The translations under genes and the position numbers were made by a program. The notes beneath the pieces are model-generated. The model was not told the origin of the DNA and searched no databases. It saw nothing but the letters and a program-made list of their open reading frames with translations. Positions 31,535 through 39,969 of a stretch of 64,000 nucleotides of DNA are shown in pieces. Location of the stretch: the NCBI GenBank assembly GCA_022548915.1, contig JAKZES010000018.1, positions 1-64,000 of the forward strand, in the 5' to 3' direction. This DNA is from Verrucomicrobiaceae bacterium E54. GTDB lineage: Bacteria > Verrucomicrobiota > Verrucomicrobiia > Verrucomicrobiales > Akkermansiaceae. Position 1 is the stretch's first letter; every line of letters begins with the position of its first letter.

Positions 31535-32275
31535 TCAACGGACCACGTTCCGGGTCAGCTCGCGCGACTCGATTTCGGCGAGGCTCAACACGCTCACACT
31601 TCCATCGGCCAGGCAGACATTGACCCTGTCGCGGTGCCGGGGAGCCGGGCCATGACCGCTCCAGCGGTCGGGTTGGGACCAGATGGCATACCAACCCTTG
31701 TTCAGTTCATTCGCATTGCGAGTGGCATCTCCGATCAGCCAGGTGCGCTCGGGGCGGGCGATCAGGTTCAGGCGGAGGGAGCCGGGTTGATTGACCCCGA
31801 CCGGACGGTTCTCGGCGTAAACAAAGATCGTGTCCTCGACCACGCCGTAACCCCCGTAAGTGTGGCTCATGAAGTCGCAATCCGGGCAGGTCCAGACACC
31901 TTTTCCGCATGGCAGTTCACCATTGCCATCCCACAGGTACCCGTCCCGCGCGAGCTGCACCGTCCAGATCGGAGGACGCTTGCCGGTGTCGGGATCGACC
32001 GCAGGCTGCAGGTCGACCAGCTTCCCATTGTTGTCCATCGCGTGGGAGAGAATCGCTCCGCCGAGCTGTCGGAGGTTCGAGACGCACTCCGTGGCGCGGG
32101 CCGCACTCTTCACGCGCCCCATGATGGGGAAGCTGATGGCGGCGAGAACCACGATGATCACGATCACCACCATCAGTTCGACGAGCGTGAACCCGGCCAC
32201 ATGGTTTGGCTTGGCAGAGCGGGTGGAAGAATCGCGACACCGTTGAGAGGGGACCGGGATGATGATGGCTTTCAC
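31535..32275 (-). CDS. Pseudopilin-like protein with prepilin cleavage motif
   Basis: The 246-residue product has the type IV prepilin/pseudopilin N-terminus: a basic leader, then GFTLVELMVVIVIIVVLAAI, cut before Phe by a prepilin peptidase, and one helix. The body has four cysteines (TCPDCDF and others) and a C-terminal VCLADGSVSVL resembling the DG motif seen in many planctomycete and verrucomicrobial pseudopilins. These stand-alone proteins often sit next to glycan loci, and their function is not settled. It converges on the GH99-like gene. A LacI-like palindrome lies just upstream of its start at 32297. Confidence 0.82.
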   Translation of the reverse strand: MKAIIIPVPSQRCRDSSTRSAKPNHVAGFTLVELMVVIVIIVVLAAISFPIMGRVKSAARATECVSNLRQLGGAILSHAMDNNGKLVDLQPAVDPDTGKRPPIWTVQLARDGYLWDGNGELPCGKGVWTCPDCDFMSHTYGGYGVVEDTIFVYAENRPVGVNQPGSLRLNLIARPERTWLIGDATRNANELNKGWYAIWSQPDRWSGHGPAPRHRDRVNVCLADGSVSVLSLAEIESRELTRNVVR

Positions 32276-33120: not shown

Positions 33121-34488
33121 TCAGTGGACGTGGCCGTCGCAGCCGGTGCCGATGTTCAGGACGAACTGCAGCCAGACGGAGTGCTCGTTGCCGTAGCCGC
33201 CGAGGTCGTCGTAGCTGTACTGGAGCCGGGTGTGGAGGTCGGCGTTGGGTGCCAGATTGCTGAGATGGGTGACGGCGGTCGAGGCGCGCCAGCGGCGTTC
33301 GGCACCGGCGGCGCGGTCGCCCGAGGCCCATTCGAGACGGGCGGCACAGGTCCACGAGGGGTGGAAGCGGATCCCGGTCGCGGCGTAGATGCCGCATTCG
33401 TCGAAGCTGCCGGGGTTGCCGTTGTTGTCGATCGCATCGACGTAGCGGTAGAACGCTTCGGTCCGCCACCAGGCCGGGCGATCGGCGACCGTGAAGGTGC
33501 CGAAGGCGTCGGCGCCGACGACCCAGGTGGTCCGTTCGAAGCCGTTCTGTCCGGCGGCGATCGAGGCACCGATGAGGTTGAACCCGTAATCGCCCGCAAC
33601 GTCGGATTCGAGTCGGGCGAAGAAGTAGCCGTCGTCGAGGTAGGCGTCCTCCATATCGAAGATGCCCCCGTTTCCGGCGAAGCCGTGGGAGTGGCCTCCG
33701 TGATCGTGATCGTCGTGGTCATGATCATCGTGGTCCTCGTCCCCATGATCGTCGTGGTCGTCATGATCCTCGTCGTGATCGTCATGGTCCTCGCCGGCGT
33801 GCTCGAGCGCTTCCTCGTAGAATTCGCGGCGTTGTTCCCGGGTCATGCCGTGGGAGTGAGGCCGGGTCTGGCCGTAGCCGAAGCGGAAGACGGTCTTCTC
33901 GCCGATGCCGGGAATGATGAACCCGATGTCGCCACCCTGCGTGATGAGGCCCTCTTCGCCCAGAAGCCGGATGACCGAGATGGGCGGTTCGACAAACTCG
34001 CGGTCGTGAAGGTGCGTCTGGTTCTCGTGGCCGAAGGGGACGAAGAACTGGCCGGCGCGCACCGACACACCGGCCGGCAGCGAAACCGTGGCGTAGAGTT
34101 CCTCCAACTCACCATCCCAGCCGTCGTATTTGTCCCAAAAGGTGTTGTAGACGCCCATCATCGAGAGATAGGGCCCGAGCTCCATCAGGGCTCCGACCTC
34201 GATGCCCTGGAGGTTGAACCCGTCGTCGATCGGGGCGTGGCCACCCTGGATCAGCCCGTAGTTCTTTTCGGAGGTCGAACCGCCGAAGGCGACCGCCGCG
34301 GAGAGGAAGGGGTGGAAGTGGAACCAGGCGTCGTCGTGGGATGGCAGCTTGAGGTCGGGATGGTGAGGGCTGACCGGCGCGTGAGCCGGAGTGACCGGAT
34401 CGTGGTCGTGATCACAGTGCTCGTGCTGGGCGGCCGCCGGGACCACGAGGGCAAGGGCCGCCAAGGCGACTCGTTTCATCAGGCTCAT
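33121..34488 (-). CDS. His/Asp-rich outer-membrane beta-barrel protein
   Basis: The 455-residue protein has a signal peptide (about 1-20, MSLMKRVALAALALVVPAAA). The mature start is His-rich (QHEHCDHDHD and PHHPDLKLPSHDD), and a 40-residue segment near residues 229-266 is made almost only of His, Asp, Glu and Gly. The rest has porin-like alternating strands ending in a terminal His. The His/Asp runs should bind zinc or a similar metal, perhaps as a surface loop of the barrel. It is divergent from an ABC pair and a second His-rich protein, so metal uptake or export across the outer membrane is likely. The ATG at 34488 gives the best signal peptide. Confidence 0.72.
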   Translation of the reverse strand: MSLMKRVALAALALVVPAAAQHEHCDHDHDPVTPAHAPVSPHHPDLKLPSHDDAWFHFHPFLSAAVAFGGSTSEKNYGLIQGGHAPIDDGFNLQGIEVGALMELGPYLSMMGVYNTFWDKYDGWDGELEELYATVSLPAGVSVRAGQFFVPFGHENQTHLHDREFVEPPISVIRLLGEEGLITQGGDIGFIIPGIGEKTVFRFGYGQTRPHSHGMTREQRREFYEEALEHAGEDHDDHDEDHDDHDDHGDEDHDDHDHDDHDHGGHSHGFAGNGGIFDMEDAYLDDGYFFARLESDVAGDYGFNLIGASIAAGQNGFERTTWVVGADAFGTFTVADRPAWWRTEAFYRYVDAIDNNGNPGSFDECGIYAATGIRFHPSWTCAARLEWASGDRAAGAERRWRASTAVTHLSNLAPNADLHTRLQYSYDDLGGYGNEHSVWLQFVLNIGTGCDGHVH

Positions 34489-34525
34489 GGAGAACGCCTT
34501 ACGAAAGTGAAACACTTCCGACAAA

Positions 34526-34537
34526 CGTTAATTAACG
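34526..34537. promoter_or_regulatory. Perfect 12-bp palindrome in divergent promoter
   Basis: CGTTAATTAACG is a perfect palindrome 38 bp upstream of the barrel gene and about 20 bp upstream of the candidate -35 of the ABC operon. It is well placed for a shared operator. The regulator is unknown. Confidence 0.4.
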
Positions 34538-34558
34538 CAAATAGATTACAAAAACATA

Positions 34559-34586
34559 TTGACTGTGATCCTGTAATACCCATATC
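34559..34586 (+). promoter_or_regulatory. Candidate sigma-70 promoter of the ABC operon
   Basis: TTGACT at 34559-34564 and CATATC at 34581-34586 are separated by 16 bp, which would start transcription near 34593. This favours the ATG at 34620 over the one at 34596 as the ATPase start. Confidence 0.4.
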
Positions 34587-34619
34587 GTCGTGGTCATGGT
34601 GAGCGTGTCATCGGGTTCC

Positions 34620-35258
34620 ATGTCCGCGGTCCGGATTCCGAAAGGCTTCGGGATCGGCTACGAGAGCACTCTGGCCACCTGCGACGAGGAGGTGGATCTC
34701 GGGCCGGGGACCCATTTCCTGCTGGCGCGCAACGGCCGGGGCAAGACGACCCTTCTGAAAACGCTTTCGGGTCTGCTGAAACCGACGGAGGGGGCTTTCG
34801 TGCTGGAAGGCAATCGTCAGTTCATCAGTGATGAACTGACCTACGATCGGGAACTCGCCGCGTCGCACGTGTTCGCCGCCTTCCTCTCGGGGTCGATCCG
34901 CAAGGAGGCGCACGCTTTCGCGGAGGAACTCGAACTCGATGTCGCGAAGCCCTTCGGCAAGCTCTCCTTCGGCAACCGCAAGAAGGTCGGACTGGTGGTG
35001 GCGGAGTTTTCGCTGATCGGAGACGGCACGGACGTGATGTTCTACGACGAACCCTTCACGGGTCTCGACACGCCGGCGCGCGAGGCCTTGCTGAAGCGCT
35101 GGCGGGAGAGCGAGGAGCGGGTGCTGCGGGTGATCTCCTGCCACCCCGACCTCGACGAAATGTCGATGCCGAGCGCGATGCTGATCAGCGACGGCCGCAT
35201 CGGCCGCCCCGGGGCCGGCGCGACGACCTGGTCGGAACTCAAGAAACTCCTCAACTGA
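34620..35258 (+). CDS. Atypical ABC transporter ATP-binding protein
   Basis: The 212-residue ATPase has a Walker A at 36-43 (ARNGRGKT, with Ala for the usual first Gly), a weak signature LSFGNRKK near 114 in place of LSGGQ, and a Walker B VMFYDEP with the catalytic Glu near 143. The Q-loop region is not obvious. The changed signature and Walker A suggest a divergent branch, although the key Lys and Glu are kept. A permease gene follows after 8 bp and a His-rich protein after that, so the three form a small export or lipoprotein-release-like unit. The substrate is unknown. Confidence 0.8.
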   Translation: MSAVRIPKGFGIGYESTLATCDEEVDLGPGTHFLLARNGRGKTTLLKTLSGLLKPTEGAFVLEGNRQFISDELTYDRELAASHVFAAFLSGSIRKEAHAFAEELELDVAKPFGKLSFGNRKKVGLVVAEFSLIGDGTDVMFYDEPFTGLDTPAREALLKRWRESEERVLRVISCHPDLDEMSMPSAMLISDGRIGRPGAGATTWSELKKLLN

Positions 35259-35266
35259 ATCCCGCG

Positions 35267-36037
35267 ATGCATCTCTTCCGGCTCAGCCTTCTGACTCTCT
35301 GGGTGCGCAAGACCTGGGTGATCATCCTGCTGCTGACCTGCGGCTTGCCCTTCGTGATGCCCCACATGGCGCCGGTGGAGACCGTGCCCAAGCTGATGCC
35401 GCCCGCGAGGGCGCACGCGGCCTGGCTGGTGGTCTGGGGCGTGGGCATCCTGTGGGGCCTGTCGCAGGCGGCCCGCCTCGGTGATGGAAACTCCCGGACC
35501 GGGGTCGGAAACTACCTCCGCGCTCGCGGCGAAGGTTCGCTGAAACAGATGGTCTCGATGTGGTCGGCGCTGATGATTTTCCTGCTGCCGGTCGTGCTGA
35601 TCGCGGTGGTCATCTGCCTGGTCGCGGCGATGCCCGGCGATCCCGAGGAGAAGGGGCTGTGGGTGGCGACCAACCTTCAGGCCGCGTTTCTGTTCCTCGT
35701 CGCCATCGGCCCCCTCGCCCTGCTCGGCATCGGTCTCTCGAGCCGCTTCGGATCGATGGTGGGATTCGTCGTTCCGGCGGGCCTGTGCCTTTACGGCCTC
35801 TACGGGGTGGGGCATCTGGCGGAGACCATCAAGATGGGAGGGAACCCCATCCTCGAGTGGCTTTACATCGTTTCGCCCCAGTACCATCTGGCCGACCTCA
35901 CGCCTCGCCTGATCTTCAAGATGGGCCAGGTCGAGTGGAGCTCCTTCGCCGGGTTCCTCGGTTACTTCGCCCTGCTGGGAGGCATGCTGGGAGGCCTGTC
36001 GCTGCTGCTTTTCCGAACCGAACCCCTGCGCTCCTGA
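35267..36037 (+). CDS. ABC transporter permease
   Basis: This 256-residue protein has six or so membrane helices: about 18-36, 50-66, 100-125, 135-160, 165-185 and 220-250. It has no recognisable substrate domain and is sized like an ABC-2-type or CcmB-like permease. It lies 8 bp after the ATPase gene and 3 bp before the His-rich protein gene. It is probably the membrane partner of the preceding ATPase. Confidence 0.75.
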   Translation: MHLFRLSLLTLWVRKTWVIILLLTCGLPFVMPHMAPVETVPKLMPPARAHAAWLVVWGVGILWGLSQAARLGDGNSRTGVGNYLRARGEGSLKQMVSMWSALMIFLLPVVLIAVVICLVAAMPGDPEEKGLWVATNLQAAFLFLVAIGPLALLGIGLSSRFGSMVGFVVPAGLCLYGLYGVGHLAETIKMGGNPILEWLYIVSPQYHLADLTPRLIFKMGQVEWSSFAGFLGYFALLGGMLGGLSLLLFRTEPLRS

Positions 36038-36040
36038 GTC

Positions 36041-37036
36041 ATGGATCGTCCAGCAGTCAGGCGGCCGGCCATCATCGCTGCAGTCGCGCTCCTCGCGGTG
36101 GCGTGGGTGGGTGTCTCGGTGTCGATGACACGTGGCGGCCACTTCGAGCACGAGCCGAATTTCATGTCGCTCAAAGGCAGCGCCTACGGCAGGACGATCG
36201 CCTTCGCGATGCGCGGGCCGGCCGACCTTTACTGGCACCGGGGAAGCCGGGAGGATCTGCACGAGGATCATCATCACGATGAAGACGAGGAGGGCGGTGA
36301 TGTCCTGCCCGCCGGGGACGTGGTGAATCCGGCGGCGCGGATGGCGGCGATCGCGGGGGAGATCAAGCGGGAGTTCGAGGAGCACGAGGCCGAAGAGGCC
36401 GCCGGGCCCGCGCCCCGGGTGCCGGCGAAGTCGACGCGCGAGTGGCTGCTGCGCTCGCTCAAGGACATGAAGATCGCGCGCTACGAGCGGACCAATCACC
36501 GCGGCGACACCGATGCGATGCATGCCTTCATGAAGGGCGAGGCCGAGAAGCGGCTGAAGCTTAGCTACGAGATGGATCCGACCAACCTCCTCTGCTACGG
36601 CTCGTATTTCTTTTTCCTGAGTGAATCGATCGTGCGGCTCAAGGGGGCGGACGACGAGGGGGCGGTGATTGCCGAAGGCGAGCGGCGGGCGCTCGACCTG
36701 GCACGCCGCACGGCCAATTACTGCCTGCAGTATCCGGACGAACCGACGGCCGCCATCACCGGCGCCTCCGCCTGCCACGACGCCCTCACCGTGATGTTGA
36801 GGAACAAGGTGGGGACCGAGCAGGAGCTGCGCGGTTTCCTCGAGATCGGGGCCCGCTCGCTGCAACGCTTCGACCAGCTCAAGGAAGAGATGATCGCCGA
36901 CGGCCGCTGGGAGGATTTCTCCGAGCACCGGCGGCTTGAAATGGACGAGGCCCGGACCCTGGTCGGGGTCGCCCTGCTGGGCGATCGCCAGCTCATCGAG
37001 GCGCAACTCAAGCCCCGGCCCGGGGAAGCGCGCTGA
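36041..37036 (+). CDS. His-rich membrane-anchored protein, unknown family
   Basis: The 331-residue protein has one N-terminal helix (about 10-27). It is followed by HFEHEPN and a metal-binding-like stretch HEDHHHDEDEE near residue 74, then a helical region (about 110-320) suggestive of TPR-like repeats. No known family is recognised. It is the third gene of the ABC operon. Together with the His/Asp-rich barrel encoded divergently, it points to zinc or another transition metal as the ligand. It probably faces the periplasm. Confidence 0.6.
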   Translation: MDRPAVRRPAIIAAVALLAVAWVGVSVSMTRGGHFEHEPNFMSLKGSAYGRTIAFAMRGPADLYWHRGSREDLHEDHHHDEDEEGGDVLPAGDVVNPAARMAAIAGEIKREFEEHEAEEAAGPAPRVPAKSTREWLLRSLKDMKIARYERTNHRGDTDAMHAFMKGEAEKRLKLSYEMDPTNLLCYGSYFFFLSESIVRLKGADDEGAVIAEGERRALDLARRTANYCLQYPDEPTAAITGASACHDALTVMLRNKVGTEQELRGFLEIGARSLQRFDQLKEEMIADGRWEDFSEHRRLEMDEARTLVGVALLGDRQLIEAQLKPRPGEAR

Positions 37037-37186
37037 ATCACCACCACAGAGGCGGTGGCGGTTTCAGGCTCCGCCCACGCTGCATTTCTCATGAACGCCC
37101 GGGCAACCCGGTGAACTCCTGAAAGCAGTCTGATGCCCGAGGGAAACCGAGGGACGGCGTTGCCGGACCGGTTTTGACTTCACCAG

Positions 37187-38353
37187 TCAGAATTCGTCGC
37201 CGGCCGTGACGTCGACGCGACCGAATCCGCGGGTGGCTCCGGGGGGGGCGGGACGGCGGGAAGTGACGAGTTCCCACTCCGCATTGAGGCCGTCCAGCGG
37301 AGGATCGAAGTCGGCGGCAGTCGTCGCCACACCGGTGTCGTTCCAGCCTGCCGACAGGTCGCTGGAGAACTCCGGCTGATAGACATCCGGCATCAGGCGG
37401 TCGCCGGCCCGCCGACGCGGGTAGGTGAGGGTCTCGTAGAGGGTGCCACCATCGTCGACGAGGGAGAAGGTCGGGAAGCCCAGACCTTCCTCCACCGGAA
37501 CCGGACCACCGACGCGGGGATTCGTGCCGAAGGCGTATTCGAGCAGGTTGACCAGACCGTCGAGATCGGGGTCGGCGTCCATTCCGGAAATCGCCGGATC
37601 ATCGAGCTCGTCGGCATCGAACCAGGTGGCCTGCCAGCGTCCGACCGTGCCAACCGTGAAGGTCAGGGTGAAGGGGTCACCGGCACCCGTCGGATTGGTC
37701 TCCCCGGGGCCGAGAAATGCCGACGACTCGAAGGTTACCCGGTGGACCCCGAGTTCGGTGAAACCCCACCAGACGTGGAGGTGGCTGCCCGCCGCGTAAT
37801 AGAAGCTGTCTTCGTTGGAGGTATCGGAGGTCGACATCCAGACCGTGGGGGGCTGGCCGGACGAGGCGTTCCACAAGGAGAAATGCGAAGTCTTTCCCGG
37901 AGGAGGGGAATAGTCCACCAGCGAAATCTTGATCCAAGGCCGGGCCAGTCCCTGCGAGACGCGGGCATCCGCGGGGATGTAAGAACCGAAGGTGTCGGTG
38001 GGCTGGTCGTTGTCGAAGCCGGGCCACACTTCGTTGATGCCCGGGGTGCCTTGGACAGCGGTCCAGATCGGATCGCCTGGAGAGGCTCCCGTGAAGCTGA
38101 AGGTGCTCGACGTGGGTTGGGTCTGCCTCGACCCCGAGATGGCGGGATTTCCGGCCACGACCGGCTTGTCGGAAAGCGGGAGAAAGACGAGCGCCGGGTC
38201 CCAGGGCTCCGGGTGGCTGTCAACCCTCAGGACGTTCGACCACTCTCCGCCCTCATAGTGCGAGCGCACGTCGAGGTGTTCGCCGAGGGGCGACAGTCCG
38301 GCTGCGAGGGGAGTGGCGCTCAGCAGGGAAAGAAAGGAAGCGGAAGACTTCAT
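37187..38353 (-). CDS. Choice-of-anchor-M-type secreted protein
   Basis: The 388-residue protein has a signal peptide (MKSSASFLSLLSATPLAAG). The central part is typical of the surface-anchored/ABC-transporter-associated repeat family: DVRSHYEGGEW at the start, then HLHVWWGFTELGVHRVTFESS. The C-terminal third carries DADPDLDGLVNLLEYAFGTNP, a calcium-binding-like thrombospondin type 3 motif common in the phylum. There is no PEP-CTERM tail. In Actinobacteria this repeat family is associated with metal ABC transporters, which fits the neighbouring His-rich locus. Its start overlaps the stop of the upstream pseudopilin (TGATG). Confidence 0.72.
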   Translation of the reverse strand: MKSSASFLSLLSATPLAAGLSPLGEHLDVRSHYEGGEWSNVLRVDSHPEPWDPALVFLPLSDKPVVAGNPAISGSRQTQPTSSTFSFTGASPGDPIWTAVQGTPGINEVWPGFDNDQPTDTFGSYIPADARVSQGLARPWIKISLVDYSPPPGKTSHFSLWNASSGQPPTVWMSTSDTSNEDSFYYAAGSHLHVWWGFTELGVHRVTFESSAFLGPGETNPTGAGDPFTLTFTVGTVGRWQATWFDADELDDPAISGMDADPDLDGLVNLLEYAFGTNPRVGGPVPVEEGLGFPTFSLVDDGGTLYETLTYPRRRAGDRLMPDVYQPEFSSDLSAGWNDTGVATTAADFDPPLDGLNAEWELVTSRRPAPPGATRGFGRVDVTAGDEF

Positions 38354-39075
38354 CACAGGCCGGGCGGTTGGGCGATGTTGATTCCCGAGTCGGTCTTCTG
38401 CTTCAGCGTCGCGGCGCGGATCGACTCCACGCGACCATCGGCGTAGAGGTAGTTGGAACGCCCGTCCGCCGCGAGGCGGTCGTCGCTGCCGCCGAAGCGG
38501 CTGGGGGCGATGTCCGAGCAGACGCCGCTCCAGCTGCCCCAAAGATTCGAGTGCGTGTGGTCGTTTCCGGGGCCGGCGCCGATCCGGTCGGAGCAGACGA
38601 AGGCGAGCAGGGTCCGGGACGCGTCCGGAATGGCGGCCGGCCGGTTCAGTGCCGGTCCCACGGTTTCTCCCCATGCATTGACCTCGGGGACGAAAATGAA
38701 GCTGTTGAGGATGTAGCTGGTGCCTCCGGCTTCGAGCCGCTCGTTGGCGCGGGGGTCGGCCGGGCAAATCCGGATTTCGTCGTAGTCGCCGAGGTAGGGT
38801 CTCAGGGACTCGATCCATGCCCGGTCGAGACTGACCGTGTGCGAAGTCTCCGGGAAGCGCCCGCCATGATCCTGGGCATGGAGATGGAGGGCGACCCCGA
38901 TGTTCCGCAGATTGCTGAGGCAGCGGGCCTCCTGGGCGCGGACCTTCACGGAGTTGGCAACGACAGCTCCCAAGGTTGCGAGCACGGCAACGATGACCAC
39001 CGAGACCATCAATTCGACCAGCGTGAAGCCGGTCGGTGCCGGGCGATGATGCGGATGACGGGGGCGGTAATTCAT
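38353..39075 (-). CDS. Pseudopilin-like protein with prepilin cleavage motif
   Basis: The 240-residue protein has a 16-residue basic leader, then GFTLVELMVSVVIVAVLATLG, the prepilin signal and single helix. The body contains LSNLRNIGVALHLHAQDHGGRFPE and a C-terminal YLYADGRVESI resembling the DG motif of this pseudopilin class. It is translationally coupled to the anchor-M protein gene that follows. It starts about 100 bp from a Fur-box-like inverted repeat. The ATG at 39075 gives the shortest sensible leader. Confidence 0.82.
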   Translation of the reverse strand: MNYRPRHPHHRPAPTGFTLVELMVSVVIVAVLATLGAVVANSVKVRAQEARCLSNLRNIGVALHLHAQDHGGRFPETSHTVSLDRAWIESLRPYLGDYDEIRICPADPRANERLEAGGTSYILNSFIFVPEVNAWGETVGPALNRPAAIPDASRTLLAFVCSDRIGAGPGNDHTHSNLWGSWSGVCSDIAPSRFGGSDDRLAADGRSNYLYADGRVESIRAATLKQKTDSGINIAQPPGL

Positions 39076-39174
39076 GGGCGTGGCGTGGGAAGTGCTTTCG
39101 GAATCGTGATGGAATGGACCGGAATCGTCCGGCGGACCGGGTCGGGATGCAGCTGACTGCGGCAAGATGTGCAG

Positions 39175-39191
39175 TTGCATAAAAAATGCAA
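39175..39191. promoter_or_regulatory. Fur-family-like inverted repeat
   Basis: TTGCAT-AAAAA-ATGCAA is a perfect 6-5-6 inverted repeat. A second, weaker copy (TTGCATAAGAGTTGCGA) begins 18 bp downstream of its end, near 39210. It lies between the leftward pseudopilin/anchor-M pair and the rightward anchor-M/PEP-CTERM gene. It looks like a Fur/Zur-type operator, fitting a metal-responsive locus. Confidence 0.5.
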
Positions 39192-39264
39192 ATCAAAATA
39201 GATTTCTCTTGCATAAGAGTTGCGATAAGGAATTTTGACGCCGCTTCCCACGATCCAACCAATC

Positions 39265-39969
39265 ATGAAAACGAATCTTCTCTTTGCGGCGTCACTTTCA
39301 ATTTTGGGCCTTCCGACTCTCGGCCACGCGGCACTCCTCGTGACGGGAGGGCACATCGATGCCCCGGCCTTCGGCTACGACACCATCGGAGGCTTCGAAC
39401 CGCACATTCACAACGAAGGGGGCCCGGATGGGGCGATCATCGGCGGTGTGGTCCAGACTACGGGATCCGAATACGAGCCGGACGAGCTCGTGTTCCAGCT
39501 CAAGTCAACCGTCACGACCAGCGTCAGCGGAACGGACTACTTCTGGCTGCCCGAAGGCGAGTTGGACGCGGCGGCCAACGGCCTTCCTTTCCTGGGAGTG
39601 GGCCTGGAGGAACTGGCTCAGGGCGACTGGGACGGGGGCGTTGGAACGGTGACGATCACCGCGTCGAAAGTCAGTGGGCCCGGAGAGTTCCGCCTCTGGC
39701 AGGACGATGGTTTCGGCGGGGTCGTCGACTTCATCAACACGGCGACGGCGACGGACAGCTTCACGCTGATCGCCGGGACCCATACCCATTACAACTGGGG
39801 CTTCACGGAACTCGGCGTCTATGAAATCGAATTTGGAATTTCGGGCAACCACGTCACGGATGGAGCCCAGTCCGGCTCCGCGGTTTACACCTTCGCCGTC
39901 CCGGAGCCTTCAACAGCTTTGCTGGGTGTGTTGGGGGGTCTGTTGCTGCTGCGCCGTCGGCGGGGCTGA
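39265..39969 (+). CDS. Choice-of-anchor-M protein with PEP-CTERM
   Basis: The 234-residue protein has a signal peptide (about 1-22), then LLVTGGHIDAPAFGYD and THTHYNWGFTELGVYEIEFGISG. These mark it as a relative of the protein at 37187-38353. The end is a PEP-CTERM tail (VPEPSTALL, hydrophobic stretch, LRRRRG). It is probably sorted to the surface by an exosortase encoded elsewhere. Its two His-rich spots (HIDAP and HTHYN) may bind metal. It is divergent from the pseudopilin gene and shares the Fur-like inverted repeat. Confidence 0.8.
   Translation: MKTNLLFAASLSILGLPTLGHAALLVTGGHIDAPAFGYDTIGGFEPHIHNEGGPDGAIIGGVVQTTGSEYEPDELVFQLKSTVTTSVSGTDYFWLPEGELDAAANGLPFLGVGLEELAQGDWDGGVGTVTITASKVSGPGEFRLWQDDGFGGVVDFINTATATDSFTLIAGTHTHYNWGFTELGVYEIEFGISGNHVTDGAQSGSAVYTFAVPEPSTALLGVLGGLLLLRRRRG

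Follow-up and report, generated by a model that had tools for sequence, protein, structure and literature searches.

The genome of Verrucomicrobiaceae bacterium E54 (assembly GCA_022548915.1; GTDB family Akkermansiaceae) contains, on contig JAKZES010000018.1, a gene block that is probably a zinc-starvation locus of a diderm bacterium. It would combine an outer-membrane channel with surface zinc-capture proteins, one of them coupled to a pseudopilin. The window analysed, i.e. the first 64,000 nucleotides of this contig, carries the block at positions 33121-39969: a gene for an outer-membrane beta-barrel, an ATP-binding cassette (ABC) trio, a pseudopilin gene, and two genes for choice-of-anchor-M (anchor-M) proteins. 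Gene linkage, predicted operator boxes, motifs, and predicted folds were computed; from these we infer Zur binding, zinc binding, channel activity, surface location, and contact between pseudopilin and anchor-M protein. The genome of strain E54 itself (G000; 5.9 Mb, 255 contigs) was compared with a set of 57 related genomes. In part of the comparative loci, genes were called by a simple codon-usage caller, and names given without a family search were assigned by eye. The names znuA, znuB, and znuC rest on mutual likeness and PF01297, and the metal is assigned by name.

The proposed sequence of events is as follows. When zinc is scarce, a Zur-type repressor would leave boxes resembling CGCAA-N5-TTGCG, and the His-bearing outer-membrane channel would then be made and let zinc into the periplasm. 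Zinc at the cell surface would be bound by two secreted proteins that bear HxD/HxH and resemble ZnuE/F/G. Anchor-M 2 would be retained through a PEP-CTERM signal, and anchor-M 1 would be co-translated with a dedicated pseudopilin, whose task is probably to carry, export, or display this protein. The final passage across the inner membrane would fall to ZnuA and ZnuCB, whose genes lie elsewhere in the genome behind the same box. Any part played by the trio in the zinc response would be in support of the pseudopilin or the envelope, not zinc transport.

Outer-membrane barrel and predicted operator

The barrel gene (33121..34488, minus strand) encodes a porin-like protein of 455 amino acids with a signal-peptide-like start and a His/Asp-rich loop, the run being located by eye at about residues 226-270. 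A match to this protein was present in 40 of the 57 related genomes. Outside the genus, znuA belonged to the gene cluster of the barrel at 16 of 25 loci, 11 of which also contained znuB and znuC; these loci represent 24 of the 28 barrel-matching genomes outside the genus, with G022, G033, G045, and G048 left out. Alignment of 13 barrels, three of which are only 27-31% identical to that of the window, revealed five invariant His residues (H84, H159, H161, H211, and H213). They include two HxH pairs, H159/H161 and H211/H213, and the long His/Asp run lies outside them. As judged from the znuA linkage of its relatives, the barrel is a member of a zinc-linked family.

The pattern CGCAA-N5-TTGCR was found in the znuA promoters of six genomes of the genus. 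A matrix built solely from these six sites was scanned over 1.10 Mb of loci. The predicted Zur-type box between the barrel and the ABC genes (CGCAA-N5-TTACA; 34536..34550) scored 13.0 bits, which is the best value in the entire window and was matched by none of 5000 Markov-sampled sequences of intergenic composition. Boxes of at least 12 bits occurred upstream of 14 of 30 barrel genes (that of the window included), 8 of 19 held-out znuA genes, 3 of 7 pilin genes, 3 of 13 anchor-M genes, and one of four genes for TonB receptors. The corresponding count for other genes was 12 of 489, and 11 of these 12 have a znuA or barrel gene as divergent neighbor. Fisher tests for box enrichment gave 1e-12 (barrel), 7e-8 (znuA), and 2e-5 (pilin plus anchor-M). 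These counts exclude L057 (the same place as L166), L203, L209, and the six training znuA sites; one counted ‘ABC’ box (L050, 13.9 bits) belongs to a miscalled start, and the true start in L050 has none.

In the genome of strain E54, the exact pattern is present at 16 sites, versus six for the reversed pattern. One of these sites is at znuA and was part of the training set; another, upstream of znuC-znuB, was not. The box at 34536 is missed by the exact pattern, since TTACA stands for TTGCR. The znu genes of this genome are split: znuC-znuB is located on contig C55 (L212) and a lone znuA on contig C225 (L224), each with a box. The ZnuC encoded on C55 has a His-rich N-terminus. The site between the barrel and the ABC genes shares its predicted operator with znuA, as in a Zur regulon, and is predicted to bind Zur.

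Export of zinc, one of the two directions proposed in the preliminary description of this DNA, was rejected, since the genes accompany znu genes and the znuA box. Scavenging, the other direction, is the most likely one and agrees with the znu linkage, the box, and the HxD and HxH motifs described below. The suggested route across both membranes stands as far as the outer membrane, where the znuA-linked barrel would act; the part assigned to the ABC genes is considered with the trio.

Anchor-M proteins and pseudopilin

Anchor-M 1 (37187..38353, minus strand) and anchor-M 2 (39265..39969, plus strand) match NF038134 with 63.4 and 75.1 bits, respectively, and both exceed the curated cut-off of 55. 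Anchor-M 2 also matches TIGR03769 (42.4 bits; cut-off 30.9). Its C-terminal PEP-CTERM sorting signal scored 16.5 bits with TIGR02595 (cut-off 16) and 16.5 bits with the Pfam PEP-CTERM model, under the cut-off of 20.7. No PEP-CTERM, sortase signal, or C-terminal membrane tail was seen by eye in anchor-M 1. The motifs are H30-x-D32 and H173-x-H175 in anchor-M 2, and HLD and HLH in anchor-M 1; aligned relatives carry HxD in the N-terminal and HxH in the C-terminal region. Among 44 aligned sequences (43 chosen members of the extracted set plus the protein of the window), D32 is invariant and H49, H173, and H175 are conserved in at least 90%; H30 is not among these. The AlphaFold model of anchor-M 2 is confident and mostly beta (mean predicted local distance difference test score, pLDDT, 92.2). 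A Foldseek search against PDB with this model or that of the pseudopilin returned nothing at E 0.001 or better, and a profile search of solved structures with anchor-M gave weak matches only (best E 0.1, filamin). The VIA-align matches of anchor-M, a set of tied beta-sandwiches (best Z 6.1; root-mean-square deviation, rmsd, 3.9; 131 aligned), were not taken as relatives.

Genes of the zinc response recur around anchor-M genes. A zinc marker (barrel, znuA/B, CobW, or MerC) was present in 9 of 14 anchor-M clusters from 12 related genomes and in none of 16 control loci, which were trio- or Fur-centred and not random. In a wider scan of named genomes, a marker was detected in 24 of 65 anchor-M loci; many of these loci are cut by contig ends, and the marker queries were verrucomicrobial, so that distant markers could be missed. 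In Actinobacteria, where the preliminary description placed the anchor-M family with metal ABC transporters, znuA was identified in 11 of the 13 anchor-M loci so titled. The proteins of the window are supported, by family and motif, as putative diderm counterparts of the actinobacterial ones, and are predicted to bind zinc.

A second architecture comprises a TonB receptor, two anchor-M genes, a 191-residue protein, and CobW; it is complete in G003, G006, and G011, and partial in G012 and G027. The TonB receptor gene is divergent from the two anchor-M genes, with CobW, in L057/L166 (7935-14364), L154, L155, L156, and L157. The 191-residue family of this block has no Pfam match. A MerC-family membrane protein is encoded beside anchor-M or the barrel in L042 (13027-13749), L226, L228, L230, L232, and L163, which suggests a place for some MerC proteins in zinc regulation.

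The pseudopilin gene (38353..39075, minus strand) was absent from the preliminary description. Its stop and the start of anchor-M 1 overlap by one base, which suggests that the two genes form one operon. The protein has a prepilin motif, a long N-terminal helix (residues 19-69; model pLDDT 93.9), and a C-terminal sheet. It scored 26.8 bits with TIGR02532 (cut-off 16.3). The NCBIfam models and the profile matches to solved pilins cover no more than its N-terminal part, and the VIA-align comparison with PilA4 (6xxd) yielded a middling Z of 5.8 (rmsd 3.3; 117 aligned). A DHTH motif distinguishes the family: DHxH is kept in 35 of the 38 extracted homologs above 90 bits, and, in an alignment of 37 sequences (36 chosen from the extracted proteins plus the protein of the window), D172 and H173 never vary, with H175 conserved in at least 90%. 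A second prepilin-type protein is encoded in the window at 31535-32275; it scored only 45.5 bits against the pseudopilin and does not have the DHTH motif.

The linkage of this pseudopilin to anchor-M is tight. Six pilin matches of at least 189 bits were found in the 57 genomes, the next one scoring 72.6 bits. All six adjoin anchor-M, and the seventh adjoins a sub-threshold anchor-M match. A scan of the taxonomic family, with up to 10 candidates scored per genome, revealed the pilin in 34 of 260 genomes (36 matches). Loci were obtained for 30 of these matches, and anchor-M was present at all 30, as detected with four clean queries; the weakest case was L298 (54.7 bits). In the wider scan, a prepilin match was present in 42 of the 65 anchor-M loci, 38 of these being above 90 bits. 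The four weaker ones (L239, L243, L247, and L267) may be other prepilins or cut pieces, because prepilins are common in the group. The pairing extends to records of Planctomycetota and Armatimonadota, with a prepilin match in 11 of 14 planctomycete-type or Fimbriimonadaceae anchor-M loci and no zinc marker seen nearby.

The barrel, pilin, and two anchor-M genes occur together again in G001, and znuABC, the barrel, the pilin, and one anchor-M gene lie within about 10 kb in G051. The gap between barrel and pilin in G051 (L164 5395-8916, and L159) encodes a flavin adenine dinucleotide oxidoreductase, the 191-residue protein of the second architecture, and a FeoB-like GTPase that contains a Gate domain; similar genes were recognized by eye in G037. 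The GTPase is possibly a further membrane protein of the zinc response.

ABC trio and alternative readings

The trio is oriented away from the barrel gene and comprises an ABC ATPase (34620..35258), a permease (35267..36037), and a third protein (36041..37036), all on the plus strand. The ATPase is a diverged copy of the pilus-type kind. It matches PF00005 (37.2 bits; cut-off 25), with a degenerate Walker A (ARNGRGKT) and the signature LSFGN, both read by eye. The permease shows a sub-threshold ABC2-type match only. The third protein has a single N-terminal hydrophobic segment, by which it would be anchored, a His-rich linker, and no Pfam or NCBIfam match. The permease was found in 34 of the 57 genomes. 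In the 20 best loci of 37 permease matches, a gene for a PilT-like ATPase follows the trio, which thereby heads a type IV pilus-like operon, at all 16 loci outside the clade of the window (L005-L020); it does so at none of the four loci within the clade (L001-L004, from G000, G014, G001, and G032). A second trio copy of strain E54, on contig C176, heads an operon that also encodes a T2SSE-type ATPase and a secretin; genes for a pseudopilin and a PilO-like protein were recognized there by eye. In the permease tree, the window copy groups with the copies of genus g16 except that of G230 (support 0.989, 17 tips); in the basal members G230 and G132, the trio is accompanied by a PilT-like match. 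It follows from the tree and these PilT-like genes that the window copy probably derives from a pilus-linked module and has since moved.

The preliminary description had correctly recognized the barrel, the trio, and the two anchor-M proteins, as family scores and reading by eye agree, and had treated the ABC pair as a zinc transporter with the His-rich protein as a further sign of metal handling. The latter points were not supported. An anchored-repeat ABC system (TIGR03770-03773) was rejected: the ATPase scored 45 bits with TIGR03771, far below the cut-off of 268.8, and the anchor-M proteins scored 16-17 bits with TIGR03772 (cut-off 350.45), with no binding-protein gene in the block. No ZnuA-like binding protein was found with the ABC pair, the two PF01297 genes of the genome being located on contigs C211 and C225. 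The His-rich linker is no evidence for a metal role, because several pilus-linked copies have it too; in some pilus-linked trios (L041 7716-8738 and L047 5863-6879), the third protein carries a long Cys/His-rich linker that exceeds the one of the window copy.

The window box lies at -81 from the ABC gene, and the trio of G014, which is 82-88% identical to that of the window, has a 9.4-bit box at the same distance with a different divergent neighbor. Recruitment of the trio to zinc control may have occurred in these two species. No box was found at the trio in G001, 15 g16 loci, G132, and 13 pilus-linked loci (best 4.9 bits). That the whole block forms one zinc pathway, in which the trio would move zinc inward or outward and the anchored His-rich protein would be its binding partner, would agree with the shared box position and the linker. 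It is nevertheless very improbable, given the missing substrate-binding protein, the pilus context of the other-lineage trios, the trios without a box, the similar linkers of pilus-linked copies, and the fact that 5 of 5 pilin-bearing g10 genomes have no permease match at E 1e-20. Recruitment of the trio as a PilGHI-like helper for assembly or export of the pseudopilin, resulting in a zinc-induced pseudopilus, is a tentative option that we consider possible if doubtful. The box position common to two species speaks for it, as does the presence of the clade's trio copies in G000, G001, and 8 of 9 pilin-bearing g16 genomes. Against it, neither the pilin family nor anchor-M was matched in the trio-bearing G014, the pilin occurs in genus g10 in the absence of any trio, pilin-bearing g13 has only other-lineage trios or none, and the trio adjoins the barrel in just 2 of 11 genomes. 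Somewhat less likely still is a zinc-starvation-induced pseudopilus common to several diderm phyla (Verrucomicrobiota, Planctomycetota, and Armatimonadota), in which a dedicated pseudopilin with a DHxH metal site of its own would display co-encoded HxD/HxH capture proteins. The same rather low estimate applies to its continuation, that zinc is passed to the His-bearing channel and that a recruited PilGHI-like ABC trio helps in this lineage. We lowered this estimate slightly because all 14 planctomycete-type or Fimbriimonadaceae-titled loci were without a zinc marker.

The complete set of barrel, trio, pilin, and two anchor-M genes was found together only in strain E54. Barrel and trio are both present in 11 genomes of the genus and are neighbors only in G000 and G014. 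The grouping as a whole is thus not conserved; the barrel, pilin, and anchor-M part recurs in G001 and G051. Several observations weigh against a zinc-starvation locus. Inside the genus, znuA or znuB was near the barrel at none of 12 loci. Porin-type families match the barrel only below cut-off (PF07396, Phosphate-selective porin O/P: 17 bits, gathering cut-off 20.9; PF07642, BBP2: 15.7 bits, gathering cut-off 26.2). No zinc marker was seen in 5 of the 14 related anchor-M clusters or in 41 of the 65 wider-scan loci, among them all 14 loci just named. The box remained under 12 bits at 16 of 30 barrels, 11 of 19 held-out znuA genes, 4 of 7 pilins, 10 of 13 anchor-M genes, 3 of 4 TonB receptors, and 3 of 3 CobW upstream regions, and 20 of 30 pilin loci had no box of at least 10 bits within 330 bp. 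In the window, the box between pilin and anchor-M 2 (TGCAT-N5-TTGCG; 39210..39224) scored 8.2 bits, is the sixth best, and was reached by 399 of 5000 Markov-sampled sequences; it is weak and not significant alone. Four Fur-family genes are present in the genome as competing candidates for Zur. According to the available text of PMC12445094, His-to-Ala mutants of the Corynebacterium diphtheriae proteins are still shifted by zinc in vitro.

An alternative reading is a chance neighborhood of a zinc barrel with its box, an unrelated copy of a pilus-type ABC module, and unrelated PEP-CTERM and pilin surface proteins. The full set in a single genome and the many prepilins of the group would fit such a case. 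It is unlikely in view of the recurrence of barrel, pilin, and anchor-M in G001 and G051, the frequency of zinc markers in anchor-M clusters (9/14) versus controls (0/16), and the presence of anchor-M beside the pilin at every examined locus. The box might also belong to another Fur-family regulator of the Mur/Fur type, and the metal would then be manganese or iron. The sequence TGCAA-N5-TTGCA resembles manganese/iron Fur-family boxes of alphaproteobacteria, and the four Fur-family genes leave room for such a regulator. We regard this, too, as improbable, since the box occurs at znuA and znuC-znuB, some of the anchor-M loci also contain genes for CobW-type GTPases and MerC, and the actinobacterial anchor-M relatives are zinc-controlled. 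The Fur gene on contig C155 was rejected as a candidate for Zur; by eye, it adjoins Suf-type genes.

Known systems and gene neighborhood

In C. diphtheriae, the proteins ZnuE, ZnuF, ZnuG, CmrA, and CmrA2 carry HxD and HxH about 150 residues apart and are zinc-controlled. Growth assays point to the importance of the histidines in ZnuE and ZnuG, and zinc addition shifts ZnuE, ZnuF, and probably ZnuG (available text of PMC12445094). The znu cluster of this organism is under zinc and Zur control and is annotated as an anchored-repeat ABC transporter (available text of PMC6711530). The anchor-M proteins of the window are similar to ZnuE/F/G in their predicted secretion and in the spacing of HxD and HxH, and the locus resembles the znu cluster in its zinc-uptake neighbors and in a channel-type protein. 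Control by zinc starvation is demonstrated for the C. diphtheriae cluster and predicted for the locus of the window. Unlike C. diphtheriae, the host is a diderm, an outer-membrane barrel is present, and the block contains no ZnuABC genes. Also, the anchor-M proteins have PEP-CTERM or a pseudopilin partner instead of a sortase signal or membrane tail; ZnuF is likewise described without a sortase signal (available text of PMC12445094).

Zur-regulated entry of zinc through the outer membrane is known for TonB receptors and porins, oprD being listed in the available text of PMC6103462. Such receptors and porins share with the barrel the entry at the outer membrane under zinc-starvation control, which is predicted for the window. 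The barrel differs from them in that it passes no curated porin model, is not a TonB receptor by family search, and is znuA-linked in relatives. PilG, PilH, and PilI are ABC-type proteins of the type IV pili of Myxococcus (available text of PMC6060248). The trios of the other lineage are likewise ABC-type sets tied to pilus genes, a likeness of gene context and not of direct sequence comparison; the window copy appears to have left the pilus operon. Streptococcal Pht (polyhistidine triad) proteins are also surface proteins, proposed to pass zinc to an importer (available text of PMC12445094), but their motif is different and their hosts are Gram-positive.

No paper on extracellular zinc capture in this group was found, nor any report of a link between pilins and zinc in the literature searched, outside which lay preprints and most subscription papers. 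Titles retrieved for ‘choice-of-anchor M’ included nothing on this group, and titles and abstract starts on zinc (Zur, znuA) in Verrucomicrobia and Akkermansia nothing on the locus. The locus would represent a known kind of system, surface zinc capture, in a diderm, with apparent coupling to a pseudopilin. The analysis provides a testable regulon with a defined, predicted operator and points to a barrel that accompanies znuABC in relatives. It also ties an uncharacterized NCBI domain, anchor-M, to zinc-binding proteins of Corynebacterium, and a pseudopilin family to this domain. Participation of pseudopilins in metal capture, if true, would be a new use of pilus-type machinery. Downstream of anchor-M 2, the block is followed by a gene for a Kef-type antiporter, named by eye.

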